The notes beneath the pieces were generated by a model, which saw nothing but the letters and a program-made list of their open reading frames with translations, was not told where the DNA came from and did not search any database. DNA of 64,000 bases. Origin: an uncultured Lachnospiraceae bacterium (GTDB lineage Bacteria > Bacillota > Clostridia > Lachnospirales > Lachnospiraceae). The position numbers and the translations under genes were made by a program. Where the stretch lies: positions 1 to 64,000 of the forward strand of contig CANOCU010000002.1 in assembly GCA_947564645.1 (NCBI GenBank), read 5' to 3'. Shown here one piece after another: positions 18,696 to 22,943 of this stretch; the stretch's first letter is position 1; the number at the start of each line of letters is the position of its first letter.

Positions 18696-18834
18696 AGCGC
18701 TTATATAATTTATGGTACTTGGCTCATTGCTCGCGGGAATAAAGCAGGTGGTGAAAACATAGCTGAAAAAGTTGAAATATAACTGTGAAAAAAAGCTGCG
18801 AAAAAATAGCCATGAAAAAAATAATAAAAATACA

Positions 18835-18863
18835 TTGACAAGATCTGGATGCTATATTAAGAT
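18835..18863 (+). promoter_or_regulatory. Strong SigA promoter for the short ORF / ABC exporter leader
   Basis: TTGACA-17-TAAGAT. A dyad ACAACA-TG-TGTTGT at 18872-18885 lies at or just after the expected start site and may be an operator. Confidence 0.75.
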
Positions 18864-18944
18864 AAAAGATAACAACATGTGTTGTGAGACAGACATAAGA
18901 ATACGGTACGACACAACAAAATTGTAAGGAAGGAGGTAACCGTT

Positions 18945-19058
18945 ATGTTGAAGACCAATAAGTTCAGAAGTGCAGCAGGCGCTGGCGTTAAATTGAATCA
19001 TGCAGTACGGAAATTACCTCCGCAGACAGAGAAGAGAGAATCTTTACGTAGATTGTGA
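18945..19058 (+). CDS. 37-residue peptide, possible leader peptide of an attenuator
   Basis: A short ORF with a near-perfect ribosome site (GGAAGGAGGT, 8-9 bp before the ATG), driven by the promoter at 18835-18863. The peptide is strongly basic with few acidic residues, no Cys and no hydrophobic segment, so it is neither a membrane toxin nor a lanthipeptide-like precursor. It contains VRKLPPQ; the RNA coding for that stretch (19010-19018, GAAATTACC) is perfectly complementary to 19180-19188 in the downstream terminator. It precedes a heterodimeric ABC exporter, like BmrB upstream of BmrCD in Bacillus. I infer a leader peptide whose translation governs termination; an independent small protein remains possible. 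Confidence 0.65.
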   Translation: MLKTNKFRSAAGAGVKLNHAVRKLPPQTEKRESLRRL

Positions 19059-19173
19059 CGATGGAACGGCGAATGGCAGGTGTGTGACAGAGGCGTGGGA
19101 GCAGACACATCGGGCCGGACGAAGATGATCCGATGAGTGACCTATCGGATCAGGACACATATATGTAAATGCA
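19059..19173 (+). promoter_or_regulatory. Structured leader between short ORF and terminator
   Basis: An untranslated stretch with a stem GATCCGAT / ATCGGATC around 19127-19152 and a short palindrome ACATATATGT just before the terminator. It is the space where alternative RNA folds could form. Confidence 0.5.
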
Positions 19174-19202
19174 GGCTGTGGTAATTTCACCACAGCCTTT
19201 TT
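19174..19202 (+). terminator. Terminator in front of the ABC exporter (putative attenuator)
   Basis: GGCTGTGGT / ACCACAGCC stem with a 6-nt loop (AATTTC) and five T. It lies 80 bp before the exporter start and 115 bp after the short ORF. The 3' part of its left arm and its loop can pair with the short ORF instead. Confidence 0.85.
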
Positions 19203-19282
19203 GCGCGATTAAGCAGAGTCAGAAAGGCTTAAGACCGGGCGCCGTGCAGAATATAACTTACAAAGGGGAGGGGATATAAGTC

Positions 19283-21184
19283 ATGAAGAAGATATCAAGT
19301 TACATATGGGACTACAAATTCTCTTATCTGGGTGCGATCGCGTCGCTTCTGATCGCGGTCACGCTGGATATGATGGGACCGCGGCTGATGGCATTGGTGG
19401 TAGATGATGTCATCGTGGGCGGCAATATCGCGGAACTGAAATACCTGCTGCTTGGATTTCTGGGAGTAGGTATCGGGCGGTGTGTGTTCCAGTATGCGAA
19501 GGAATACACCTTCGATAAGAATGGCATACGGATCTCGGCCGATATGCGCAGAGATCTGTTCCGGCATGTGCAGGGCCTAAGCGCGGACTTCTTTGACAGG
19601 ACGAACACGGGAGAGCTGATGGCCCGGGTAAAGGAGGATATTGACCGCATCTGGGATGCCATAGGTTATGTGGGAATGCTGCTGATCGAGGTGATCTATC
19701 ACACATCGATCATACTGATCTCCATGTACCTGCTCAACTGGAAGCTCGCGCTGCTGCCGACGGCGGCGATGCTTATGTGTGGGACGATCGCGTTGCTGAT
19801 GGAGCGGAAGCTGGGGCAGGTGTATGAGGAGATCAGTGAGGAGAATGCCAAGTTAAATACGGTGGCGGAGGAGAATCTGGCCGGTGTGCGTACCGTAAAG
19901 GCTTTTGCGCGGGAGAAGCACGAGATCGGGAAATTCCTTTCCCACAATAAGCGTTACTATGAACTGAACATGCAGCAGTCTAAGGTTTTTGTACGGTATT
20001 ATCCGTTTTTCAGCGTTGTCAGCAAGGTGCTTCCGATCCTGACCATATTGATCGGAGGAGGCTTCGTGATCAGAGGTCAGATGACGCTGGGGCAGATGAC
20101 CGCTTTCGTGGAATATTCCACGAATATCGTCTGGCCGATGGAAATGCTCGGCTGGCTGACCAACAGCTTCTCGGCAGCCGTGGCGTCCAATAAGAAGGTG
20201 CGCAAAATCTATGAAGAGAAGCCGACGATCACGGAGACTGCGGAGCCGGTCAGGATAGAGCAGGTGGCAGGCAAGGTCCGCTTCGATCACGTTTCCTTCC
20301 ACAAGGCAGATCAGTATGAGATCCTGCATGATATTTCCTTTACGGTGGAAGCAGGAAAGACGCTGGGTATTATGGGCGCCACGGGAGCAGGCAAGACTTC
20401 GATCGTGCAGCTTCTGCAGCGTATGTATGATGCGACGCAGGGTGCCATCTATCTGGACGATGTGAATATTAAGGAGCTGTCGCTTGCGCAGCTGCGCACC
20501 AGTATCAGTTTCGTGATGCAGGATGTGTTCCTGTTCTCCGATACGATCAACGATAACATCAAGCTGGGGAAGAAAGATTTCCTGGATTTCAGGACGGTGC
20601 GCAGGGCATCCGCCCAGGCACAGGCCAGCGACTTTATCGAGCGTATGGAGGATACCTATGACACGGTGATCGGTGAGCGCGGCGTGGGACTGTCCGGCGG
20701 TCAGAAGCAGCGCATCAGCATTGCCAGAGCCCTGGCCAAGAGGGATCCGATCCTGGTGATGGACGATTCCACTTCGGCGCTTGACATGGAGACGGAGCAG
20801 ATGATCCAGCAGACCCTGCGGGAACTGGAGAACACGACGAAGATCATTATCGCCCATAGGATCAGTGCGGTGCGGCACGCAGACGAGATCATCGTGCTGG
20901 AGAACGGTGCCATCGCGGAGCGGGGAACCCATGAGGAACTGCTGGCGAAGCGGGGACTCTATTATGAGACTTATGAATCGCAGTACGGTGAGATCGATAC
21001 GGCTGCTGAATTGCGACAACAGAGAAATCCGGAACAGCGCGACGATATGCAGGCAGAAGCGGCAGCACAGGAAAGCGCCGCAAAGGGCAGGGCGATCGTA
21101 CGGGGAACAGAAGATAACGGTATAGCAATAGCAGATGAAGAGAAACAGAAAGGTGGTGAGACGGATGGCAGTCAACTCGTATAA
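19283..21184 (+). CDS. Heterodimeric ABC exporter, subunit with degenerate ATP site (BmrC-like)
   Basis: A 633-residue type IV ABC exporter half: six membrane segments (1-300) fused to an ATPase domain. Walker A is GATGAGKT (near 365-372), the signature LSGGQKQR, and Walker B reads VMDDSTSALD, where the catalytic Glu is replaced by Asp. That substitution marks the noncanonical site of heterodimeric exporters such as BmrCD, LmrCD and TM287/288. A polar tail of about 60 residues (Ala/Glu/Gln-rich) follows the ATPase domain. Its end overlaps the next gene, its partner. The likely role is drug or peptide efflux, probably controlled by the leader at 18835-19202. Confidence 0.9.
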   Translation: MKKISSYIWDYKFSYLGAIASLLIAVTLDMMGPRLMALVVDDVIVGGNIAELKYLLLGFLGVGIGRCVFQYAKEYTFDKNGIRISADMRRDLFRHVQGLSADFFDRTNTGELMARVKEDIDRIWDAIGYVGMLLIEVIYHTSIILISMYLLNWKLALLPTAAMLMCGTIALLMERKLGQVYEEISEENAKLNTVAEENLAGVRTVKAFAREKHEIGKFLSHNKRYYELNMQQSKVFVRYYPFFSVVSKVLPILTILIGGGFVIRGQMTLGQMTAFVEYSTNIVWPMEMLGWLTNSFSAAVASNKKVRKIYEEKPTITETAEPVRIEQVAGKVRFDHVSFHKADQYEILHDISFTVEAGKTLGIMGATGAGKTSIVQLLQRMYDATQGAIYLDDVNIKELSLAQLRTSISFVMQDVFLFSDTINDNIKLGKKDFLDFRTVRRASAQAQASDFIERMEDTYDTVIGERGVGLSGGQKQRISIARALAKRDPILVMDDSTSALDMETEQMIQQTLRELENTTKIIIAHRISAVRHADEIIVLENGAIAERGTHEELLAKRGLYYETYESQYGEIDTAAELRQQRNPEQRDDMQAEAAAQESAAKGRAIVRGTEDNGIAIADEEKQKGGETDGSQLV

Positions 21185-22943
21185 GGACGATGAGCAGAGC
21201 ATAGAGCGCAGTAAGGTACAGACACTGCTGCGGCTGTTTCGCTATCTGCTCGATTATAAATGGCAGATCATACTGGTGCTTTTGATCATGGGATATGGCG
21301 TGGCAGTCAGCCTGATCAATCCGCTGATCATGGAATCTGCCATCGACGATCATATTTCGGTGAAGGATGTGAGCGGCCTCTACCGGCTGCTTCTGGTAGC
21401 GCTTGTTATCAACCTGCTTCTGGTGGTGACGGTGAAGCTGCGGATGTATATTATGGCGAAGGTCTGCAACGAGATTCTGCTGACGATCAGACAGGAGCTC
21501 TATACGCATATCCAGAAGTTGGATTTCGCCTTCTTTGACAGCAGACCGACGGGAAAGATCTTGTCACGTATCATCGGCGATATCAATTCCCTGAAGGACG
21601 TGTTGTCCAACTGTGTGACCACCCTGATCCCGGATGGCCTGACGGTCATTGCGGTGGTGGTGATCATGGTATGGAAGAATCCGAAGCTAGCCTTCGCCTC
21701 CATGCTGGCCATTCCGTTTATGACGGCGGGAATGGTATATATTCAGGTCAAAGCACATCCGCGCTGGCAGGTTTTCCGCAAGAAGTCAGCCAACTTAAAT
21801 GCCTTTATTCATGAAGACATGGCGGGGATGCGGATCATCCAGAGCTTTCATGCGCAGGGGGAGACGGAACGGACTTTTGACGGGCTTCTGGAGGAGCACA
21901 GGCTGGCTTTCGTCCATGCGATGCGGATGAGCGACGCCTTCGGCTCGGTGATCGATTTTTCCTGGGCCATCGGGTGTATCCTGTTATATTTTACCGGTAT
22001 CGTGGTGTTAGGGGTGGAAGAGGTGTCGTTGGGAACGTTTATCGCTTTCGGCAGCTATCTGACCATGTTCTGGCAGCCGATCCATAATATCAGCAATTTC
22101 TATAACCAGCTGGTGACGAACATAGCGGGTGCGGAACGTATCTTCGAGATCCTGGATACGCCGCCGGCTATCGCGGATGAGGCGGGCGTGATCGAGATGC
22201 CGCCGATCGAAGGGGAAGTGACTTTTGCCCATGTGACCTTTTCTTACGATGACAAGGTCAAAGTGCTGGATGACGTGAATTTCCGCATCCGTCCGGGGGA
22301 GACCATCGCTCTGGTGGGGCCTACCGGTGCCGGAAAATCGACGATCGTGAATCTGATCAGCAGATTCTATGATGTGCAGGAGGGGATCGTGTCGGTGGAC
22401 GGTCATGACGTGAAGAAGGTTTCCATCGAAAGTCTGCGCAGGCAGATGGGTATCATGACGCAGGATAATTTCCTCTTTTCGGGGACGATCAGGGACAATA
22501 TCCGCTACGGGAAACTGGATGCCACCGATGAGGAGATCATTGCGGCGGCTAAGGCGGTCAATGCCCATGACTTTATCATGCGGCTGGATGACGGCTACGA
22601 TACGGAACTGTCGGAGCGGGGCGGCGGCCTTTCCATCGGGCAGAGACAGCTTCTGGCCTTTGCCCGGACGATGGTATCGGATCCGAAGATTCTGATCCTG
22701 GATGAAGCGACTTCCAGTATTGACACGAAGACCGAGATCCTGGTACAGCAGGGCATCGAGCATCTGCTGGCGGGCCGGACATCCTTCGTGATCGCGCACA
22801 GGCTGTCAACGATCCAGAAGGCCGACCGGATTTTCGTGGTGGATGACGGCAGAATCATTGAGGAGGGCAATGCCAGACAGCTGATGGAGAAGAAGGGGGC
22901 TTATTACAGGTTATATATGGCTCAGTTTGCGTCGCAGGAGTAA
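21165..22943 (+). CDS. Heterodimeric ABC exporter, catalytic subunit (BmrD-like)
   Basis: The partner half-transporter, 592 residues. It has six membrane segments, Walker A GPTGAGKST (near 384), the signature LSIGQRQLLAFAR (near 489) and a complete Walker B ILDEATSSID with catalytic Glu. Its LSIGQ signature deviates from LSGGQ; in a heterodimer this signature faces the degenerate Walker B of the first subunit, so the two departures fit one degenerate and one active site. ATG at 21165 is chosen because AAAGGTGGTGA lies before it; an in-frame ATG at 21135 has no such site. It overlaps the first subunit by 20 bp. Confidence 0.92.
   Translation: MAVNSYKDDEQSIERSKVQTLLRLFRYLLDYKWQIILVLLIMGYGVAVSLINPLIMESAIDDHISVKDVSGLYRLLLVALVINLLLVVTVKLRMYIMAKVCNEILLTIRQELYTHIQKLDFAFFDSRPTGKILSRIIGDINSLKDVLSNCVTTLIPDGLTVIAVVVIMVWKNPKLAFASMLAIPFMTAGMVYIQVKAHPRWQVFRKKSANLNAFIHEDMAGMRIIQSFHAQGETERTFDGLLEEHRLAFVHAMRMSDAFGSVIDFSWAIGCILLYFTGIVVLGVEEVSLGTFIAFGSYLTMFWQPIHNISNFYNQLVTNIAGAERIFEILDTPPAIADEAGVIEMPPIEGEVTFAHVTFSYDDKVKVLDDVNFRIRPGETIALVGPTGAGKSTIVNLISRFYDVQEGIVSVDGHDVKKVSIESLRRQMGIMTQDNFLFSGTIRDNIRYGKLDATDEEIIAAAKAVNAHDFIMRLDDGYDTELSERGGGLSIGQRQLLAFARTMVSDPKILILDEATSSIDTKTEILVQQGIEHLLAGRTSFVIAHRLSTIQKADRIFVVDDGRIIEEGNARQLMEKKGAYYRLYMAQFASQE

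Follow-up and report, generated by a model that had tools for sequence, protein, structure and literature searches.

A probable ribosome-read transcription attenuator ahead of a heterodimeric ABC exporter in Lachnospiraceae

Background

The closest described relatives of the element analysed here are two leaders of Bacillus subtilis, which, like the other published systems below, are cited as far as the available text of each source goes. In the vmlR leader, initiating ribosomes stalled by a drug on an upstream open reading frame (uORF) of three codons prevent the formation of an anti-antiterminator, and an antiterminator then replaces the intrinsic terminator (PMC9226507). In the bmrB-bmrCD leader, a translated short open reading frame (ORF) and a terminator stand before a heterodimeric exporter, and the leader has an antiterminator and a predicted anti-antiterminator (PMC4191407). 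We analysed a stretch of 64,000 nucleotides (nt) from an uncultured Lachnospiraceae bacterium (GenBank assembly GCA_947564645.1, contig CANOCU010000002.1, positions 1 to 64,000 of the forward strand; hereafter the window), in which a promoter, an ORF of 37 codons and a terminator precede a related pair of ATP-binding cassette (ABC) exporter genes. We propose that this leader is probably a ribosome-read transcription attenuator, a three-way RNA switch that would sense ribosomes arrested at initiation: a segment inside the leader ORF, which we call AS, can pair either with the Shine-Dalgarno sequence (SD) of that ORF or with the terminator, on its left arm and loop.

The vmlR leader differs in its three-codon uORF, in an SD described as single-stranded ahead of SL-1, and in its target, an ABC-F factor (PMC9226507), whereas in the window the SD itself would be the anti-antiterminator strand, the ORF is longer and the target is a transmembrane exporter. 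Some variants of the vmlR uORF peptide work equally well and one works less well (PMC9226507). In bmrB the terminator lies inside the ORF (PMC4191407), whereas here it starts 115 nt past the stop codon (ORF end 19058, terminator start 19173); the function of the bmrB anti-antiterminator is called unclear by its own paper (PMC4191407), whereas the anti-antiterminator proposed here pairs with the SD. By analogy, bmrB-bmrCD is the closest system in gene content and vmlR the closest in presumed mechanism. The original prediction, made by a model from the sequence of the window alone, had named BmrB as the precedent, which is a fair one functionally, but mechanistically vmlR stands nearer.

Other described systems share single features with the element. 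A computational survey listed candidate attenuators in front of ABC transporters, 205 in all, including one from lactobacilli that precedes a multidrug export operon; its text, figures aside, describes neither an SD-pairing strand nor a Lachnospiraceae element, and overlap with our set is possible (Naville and Gautheret 2010; PMC2965389). The text on the Streptococcus pneumoniae attenuator of patAB uses neither the term "leader peptide" nor "ORF", and it leaves the inducing signal unresolved (PMC4319486). The hflXr/rli80 leader of Listeria monocytogenes is a ribosome-dependent transcription attenuator with a 14-residue ORF and an anti-anti-terminator, but it carries an RLR peptide motif (PMC6310831), and the leaders analysed here have no conserved motif. 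The toiL uORF of topAI in Escherichia coli is a multi-drug sensor at whose start codon tetracycline stalls ribosomes, but it acts on translation together with Rho-dependent termination and not through an intrinsic terminator (PMC12121999). A search of open-licence papers, as far as their available text goes, found no description of the present element in Lachnospiraceae or Clostridia, and the text seen of PMC11109978 does not contain the word Lachnospir-. What seems to be new here is the use of the SD as the anti-antiterminator strand, the irrelevance of the reading frame of AS, and a three-way topology that stays while the letters drift.

Alternative helices in the leader

The features of the leader in the window are as follows.

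18835-18863, forward strand: leader promoter TTGACA-17-TAAGAT, with the -35 hexamer at 18835-18840, a 17-nt spacer and the -10 hexamer at 18858-18863; it matches the consensus at 10/12 positions
18930-18939, forward strand: consensus SD of the leader ORF, AAGGAGGTAA, doubling as the 5' strand of the SD:AS helix (the putative anti-antiterminator); conserved, and covarying with AS
18945-19058 including the stop codon, forward strand: leader ORF of 37 codons, MLKTNKFRSAAGAGVKLNHAVRKLPPQTEKRESLRRL, with ATG at 18945 and the stop codon at 19056-19058; such an ORF with AS occurs in 72/81 loci
19010-19021, forward strand: toggling segment AS, GAAATTACCTCC; its 5' part is the partner of the terminator left arm and loop, its 3' part the partner of the SD
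19126-19152, forward strand: extra hairpin between AS and the terminator, predicted by folding
19173-19202, forward strand: intrinsic terminator with the stem AGGCTGTGGT/ACCACAGCCT (19173-19182/19189-19198), the loop AATTTC (19183-19188) and a T tract (19199-19202)
19180-19188, forward strand: partner of AS in the putative antiterminator, GGTAATTTC, made up of the end of the terminator left arm plus the loop

The order of ORF, SD, terminator and exporter pair given in the original prediction was correct to the base, and so was the nine-base complementarity that it pointed out, GAAATTACC at 19010-19018 being exactly complementary to GGTAATTTC at 19180-19188. Absent from it was the third helix partner. 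The segment to which we give the name AS, AAATTACCTCC (19011-19021, inside the leader ORF), is also complementary to the leader ORF's own SD, with GGAGGTAA at 18932-18939 facing TTACCTCC at 19014-19021, and the minimum-energy fold of the full leader pairs the SD and AS regions in a helix of 12 base pairs with a bulge. Because the middle of AS is common to both helices, SD:AS and AS:terminator are mutually exclusive.

The terminator folded alone has an energy of -18.5 kcal/mol (z -4.28), and its stem is followed by a short T tract of only TTTTG; a consensus terminator scan of the window region did not list this hairpin with its short T tract (19173-19198). None of 230 other 23-nt stretches of the window leader matches AS in pairing with the terminator left arm. 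Among 70 loci compared below there is no rival leader stretch in 46, and in 34 AS ranks at or below 5% of its own shuffles, a test in which the nearest and apparently wrong hairpin was used for L068, L070 and L080. The pairing evidence from single sequences is modest, and it is the comparative evidence that carries the case.

Conservation and covariation

A scan of GTDB genomes with exporter subunit A yielded 80 loci, to which the window adds one more; the record titles name Lachnospiraceae or a genus within it for 68 of the 80. An ORF with its SD and an AS segment is present at 72 of the 81 exporter loci, and in 70 of these 72 a terminator hairpin lies between AS and the gene, the terminator finder having detected none in L023 and L026. 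No SD-preceded ORF was found in the other nine (L017, L020, L024, L028, L032, L036, L043, L059, L067), of which L059 and L067 are cut by contig edges (L067 retains AS and the terminator), L024 was anchored on another gene, and L043 has 313 nt of upstream sequence, within which no such ORF was seen. The leader ORF is 27-61 codons long across the 72 loci and 24 codons long in L168/L169. The distance from AS to the terminator is 162 nt in the window, 149-155 nt in L001-L003 and 49-126 nt in the remaining terminator-bearing loci. The promoter, described as strong in the original prediction, is kept across loci, hexamers with at least 10/12 matches occurring within 130 nt 5' of the SD in 52/72 loci as against 4% of shuffles. 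In the window taken singly it did less well: a scan of 3 kb gave four promoter-like sites where 2.7 are expected, which makes the window promoter weak evidence alone.

A separate observation concerns L017, L020 and L028, where the ORF and AS are gone, the terminator is kept and the exporter stands close behind the upstream gene; these look like natural losses.

The original prediction had suggested aligning the leaders of relatives as a check, and in our alignments the ORF, the terminator and the alternative helix are conserved and covary. Two alignments were used, A1 with 36 hand-chosen leaders and A2 with 48 leaders, including 24 from a search with the model R1 and leaving out the window. 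In the SD:AS helix, 97.6% of cells are paired in A1 and 95.3% in A2; in A2 one pair changes from UA to CG in six rows, and 11 cells are changed on both sides, compared with 2.9 in shuffles (0/500). The corresponding values for AS:terminator are 99.3% and 87.9%, with 16 both-side-changed cells in A2 against 5.1 in shuffles (0/500), while the terminator stem in A1 is 89.1% paired, with 82 such cells against 29.3. In L074 and L079 one AS base has changed from A to G, and this is matched by T to C in the SD and the terminator alike. Since R1, which was built on the 36 leaders, includes the SD:AS pairs and excludes the AS:terminator pairs, the covariation of AS:terminator in the 48 leaders is free of selection bias and that of SD:AS is not. 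In a permutation test on 70 loci, which comprise 35 distinct SD/AS/terminator combinations, terminators were swapped between combinations, the terminator segment being anchored by its best match to GGTAATTT in observed and permuted data alike. Pairing of AS with the terminator was 94.6% observed and 92.4% permuted, and 0/2000 permutations reached the observed value.

At wider range, an exact-pattern search matched 8 of 397 family genomes, the pattern being too strict, and R1 at E<=0.01 found elements in 31 of the 397; its matches L119/L134, L125, L126 and L128 looked spurious on reading. At class level the model R2 matched 38 places in 33/391 genomes. Most of the 23 new loci shown read as plain terminators, and full-looking elements were seen only in L137, L141 and L148, plus the window; this reading excluded eight places without a locus and the contig-end loci L147, L152-L154, L157 and L162. 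Judged by eye, L148 adds a further full-looking element from a fourth family.

Exporter homologs at E<=1e-100 were present in 128/371 Clostridia genomes, and the best 29 loci besides the window were examined for a leader, the requirement being an ORF that opens with ATG behind a suitable SD and is followed by a terminator. Thirteen of the 29 have such a candidate, and in 10 of the 13 no more than 1% of shuffles reach the joint energy of SD:AS and AS:terminator. Half of these ten leaders (L172, L174, L175, L177, L178) come from three other families and use different letters; in L177, for instance, AGGCAGG/CCTGCCT makes up the SD part and GATAACC/GGTTATC the terminator part. The same test applied to the first set gave candidates in 69/72 loci, 55 of the 69 at or below 1%. 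On this sequence evidence, covariation together with joint complementarity, chance complementarity is rejected.

Leader peptide and RNA

AS is read in all three frames among the 72 loci: frame 0 in 17, frame 1 in 54 and frame 2 in one. Its frame-0 peptides are K-L-P-P (7 loci), E-L-P-P (3) and K-L-P-A/D/L/S (7), and those of frame 1 are E-I-T-S (29), K-I-T-S (10), K-I-I-S (8) and others (7). Compared across loci, the leader peptides diverge strongly and show no conservation, and an NCBIfam search with the window peptide gave no match. In the class-level leaders L174-L178, AS encodes D-N-P or D-D-P owing to an RNA that resembles GATAACCC or GATGACCC. No conserved stalling motif of the Erm or RLR type is present among these divergent peptides, and the translations of the leader ORFs, read by eye, contain no run of codons for one amino acid as in trp or his attenuators. 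As judged from these comparisons, it is the RNA rather than the peptide that is under selection. The original prediction had drawn attention to the K-L-P-P codons of the window as a possible sensor; K-L-P-P is found at only 7 of the 72 loci and, as AS is read in three frames and the peptides diverge, a Pro-Pro pause cannot be the general mechanism. We therefore rejected stalling driven by Pro-Pro or by the peptide.

Folding with ribosomes in place

The leader was folded as far as the terminator loop, with the left arm complete and the right arm not yet made, and the footprint of a ribosome was masked at chosen positions. The mean probability of AS:terminator pairing over 70 loci, P(AS:T), is 0.05 for the leader free of ribosomes. 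A ribosome at the start codon raises it to 0.70, with 50/70 loci exceeding 0.5, and SD:AS pairing is then lost. With the ribosome further along, the mean is 0.16 (codon 5), 0.04 (codon 9), 0.00 (on AS) and 0.07 (stop codon). Moving the ribosome one codon at a time in half of the loci (35/70) gave 0.66, 0.65 and 0.59 for codons 1-3 and 0.35, 0.17 and 0.18 for codons 4-6, and shuffling the terminator arm brought the start-codon value down to 0.05 (35 loci). With the SD as third partner, the predicted ON state is thereby confined to the beginning of the ORF, with the ribosome on codon 1 to about 4. The original prediction had allowed a ribosome stalled early in the ORF, or one reading to its end, to change the helix that forms; in the folding model the early position does so and the stop codon does not.

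Mechanism and alternatives

Comparison of sequences finds the ORF with its SD, AS, the terminator, both helices and the promoter conserved, and the two helices covarying. A terminator lies between promoter and gene, an antiterminator formed by AS and the terminator is exclusive with that terminator, and the SD:AS covariation and the masked folding point to an anti-antiterminator that a stalled ribosome could remove. The original prediction of a ribosome-controlled attenuator built from a short ORF, a terminator and an alternative helix thus gains support, comparative and in silico. For the remaining steps, from translation of the leader ORF through termination and read-through to the identity of the inducer, we infer the following course. 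With no ribosome on the leader, or with one past about codon 5, SD:AS would form first, the terminator would fold and the exporter would be off; a ribosome crossing AS would likewise keep AS away from the terminator. If instead a ribosome were halted on the start codon or immediately past it, it would cover the SD while AS stayed free, and AS would then capture the emerging left arm of the terminator, upon which RNA polymerase would read through and the exporter would be made. As natural inducers one would then expect inhibitors that hold ribosomes on the start codon or on one of the next few, irrespective of the peptide.

A number of observations weigh against this proposal. In the window, 24 of 200 AS shuffles pair with the terminator arm equally well, which makes the single-sequence signal modest, and P(AS:T) at the start codon is 0.60. 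The loci are related by descent, so that their counts are not independent. The element is missing from five loci that do have upstream sequence, L017, L020 and L028 having the terminator only and L032 and L036 nothing, and the leader of L028 is identical to that of a genome of the same genus (G060; L143, L166), with all but the terminator lost. The permutation test for SD:AS is only marginal (39/2000). In A1, 77/500 shuffles for SD:AS and 84/500 for AS:terminator have at least as many pairs with changes on both sides, and 500/500 for both helices have at least as many further pair types; such measures do not rise above shuffles because the first leaders share AS letters. In A2 the count of AS:terminator pairs changed on both sides is still reached by 132/500. 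At class level the arrangement is missing in 16/29 loci, mostly in more distant homologs, the shuffles of the joint-energy test retained the ORF and hairpin chosen as best, and L176 (15/300), L187 and L188 fail that test. L178 passes on SD:AS alone, its AS:terminator energy being -0.3 with the nearest hairpin and -15.5 with another. By eye, L176 has GATAACCC in its ORF and GGGTTATC in an earlier hairpin, and the test used another hairpin. Finally, folding was at equilibrium with an assumed footprint of -15 to +12, pausing of RNA polymerase and kinetics lying outside the model, and ribosomes at both stop and start codons favour AS:terminator (mean 0.50, above 0.5 in 37/70), so that heavy normal initiation could leak.

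This last result bears on one of the alternatives, a switch that reports how often the SD is occupied, through free ribosomes, growth rate or (p)ppGpp, and turns the exporter on when initiation is frequent. The readout would again be SD occupancy and not the peptide, as the data suggest; however, translation has to take a ribosome across AS at about the moment when the terminator emerges, a position for which the model gives 0.00 for AS:terminator, and the published relatives, as far as their texts go, respond to inhibitors. We consider a sensor of ribosome availability unlikely. We regard as equally doubtful a device of the BmrB type, in which slowing of translation anywhere in the leader ORF would permit the antiterminator. 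In B. subtilis, lincomycin, erythromycin and chloramphenicol all induce BmrCD, and for lincomycin bmrB must be translated (PMC4191407); moreover, among the solved half-transporters listed, subunit A is closest to YheI. The folding model, however, gives an ON state only at codons 1 to about 4, beyond which SD:AS re-forms.

A leader in which a specific nascent peptide, with or without a drug, stalls the ribosome and so sets the RNA fold has precedents with conserved stalling motifs, such as hflXr (PMC6310831, in its available text), and the window ORF does encode Lys-Leu-Pro-Pro-Gln at AS. Considering the three frames of AS, the many tetrapeptides and the unconserved peptides, and the fact that a ribosome standing on AS prevents the antiterminator in the model, a sensor akin to Erm or RLR leaders appears quite improbable. 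Least probable of all, to the point of being negligible, is an ordinary small-protein gene whose complementarities are accidental: it would explain the ORF's own promoter, SD and terminator, but the peptide is unconserved, and joint complementarity and covariation extend across families.

If an attenuator sensing arrested initiation is indeed at work, many gut Clostridia would control an exporter of the multidrug resistance type by an RNA switch that reads the occupancy of a single SD directly, with no need of a regulator protein or of a given leader peptide. It would predict the classes of antibiotics that induce these pumps, most of all those arresting ribosomes at the start codon, and would offer a ready-made element for reporters of initiation arrest as well as an RNA family without an Rfam 15 match. 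It would also give a defined role to an anti-antiterminator, a role left open for bmrCD.

Exporter genes and other features of the window

The genes behind the leader are the following.

19283-21184, forward strand: ABC exporter subunit A, 633 residues, with ABC_membrane and ABC_tran domains; the closest of the solved single-half structures listed is YheI
21135-22943, forward strand: ABC exporter subunit B, 602 residues as listed, with ABC_membrane and ABC_tran domains; the closest of the solved single-half structures listed is TM_0288, and YheH was also matched

The query for the structures and domains of subunit B began at 21174. The pair is heterodimeric and related to BmrCD and TM287/288, YheI and YheH being what we take to be BmrC and BmrD, respectively.

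A known Rfam family was considered for the leader and rejected, as Rfam gave 0 matches in the window and, for 18800-19400, three matches, all with E > 5. Right after the -10 hexamer there is a perfect 14-nt palindrome, ACAACATGTGTTGT (18872-18885), possibly a lineage-specific repressor site. A protein operator as a part of the device was rejected, the exact palindrome occurring in none of the other loci of the 72-locus set.

Other target genes

Some full-looking elements precede genes other than the standard exporter pair. A complete-looking one (L129, G129:C90:6668-6878, reverse strand) lies, in one genome, ahead of rsgA (ribosome small-subunit GTPase), whose product matches RsgA_GTPase and scores above the cut-off of TIGR00157. 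Another (L124, G144:C5, element 593-757) precedes an ORF of 54 residues at 1006, which has a weak relative in one other of 200 family genomes and is followed by rqcH (NFACT, ribosome quality control). A third (L122, G122:C59, element 493-659) precedes a 94-residue ORF at 714 without a Pfam match, in a genome that also has an exporter copy (L095) with a leader identical to that of L073 (titled Roseburia hominis). Elements L130 (G184:C45) and L131 (G318:C15) stand ahead of ABC exporters of 772 and 776 residues with an N-terminal extension, the best NCBIfam match of the L130 exporter being CphA_assoc_ABC, below the cut-off, and L127 stands ahead of another exporter in a genome that also carries a standard copy (L114).

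Being single cases, these non-standard targets could be chance relocations, but together they suggest a mobile device. It is a real though tentative possibility that we are dealing with a widespread and largely letter-independent RNA device of Clostridia, with the leader SD as its sensor, which has moved between genes and may serve a general regulon of initiation arrest. As a minor observation, the small ORFs of L122 and L124 both have, by eye, a stretch resembling WA-x-x-E-x-x-YNC.

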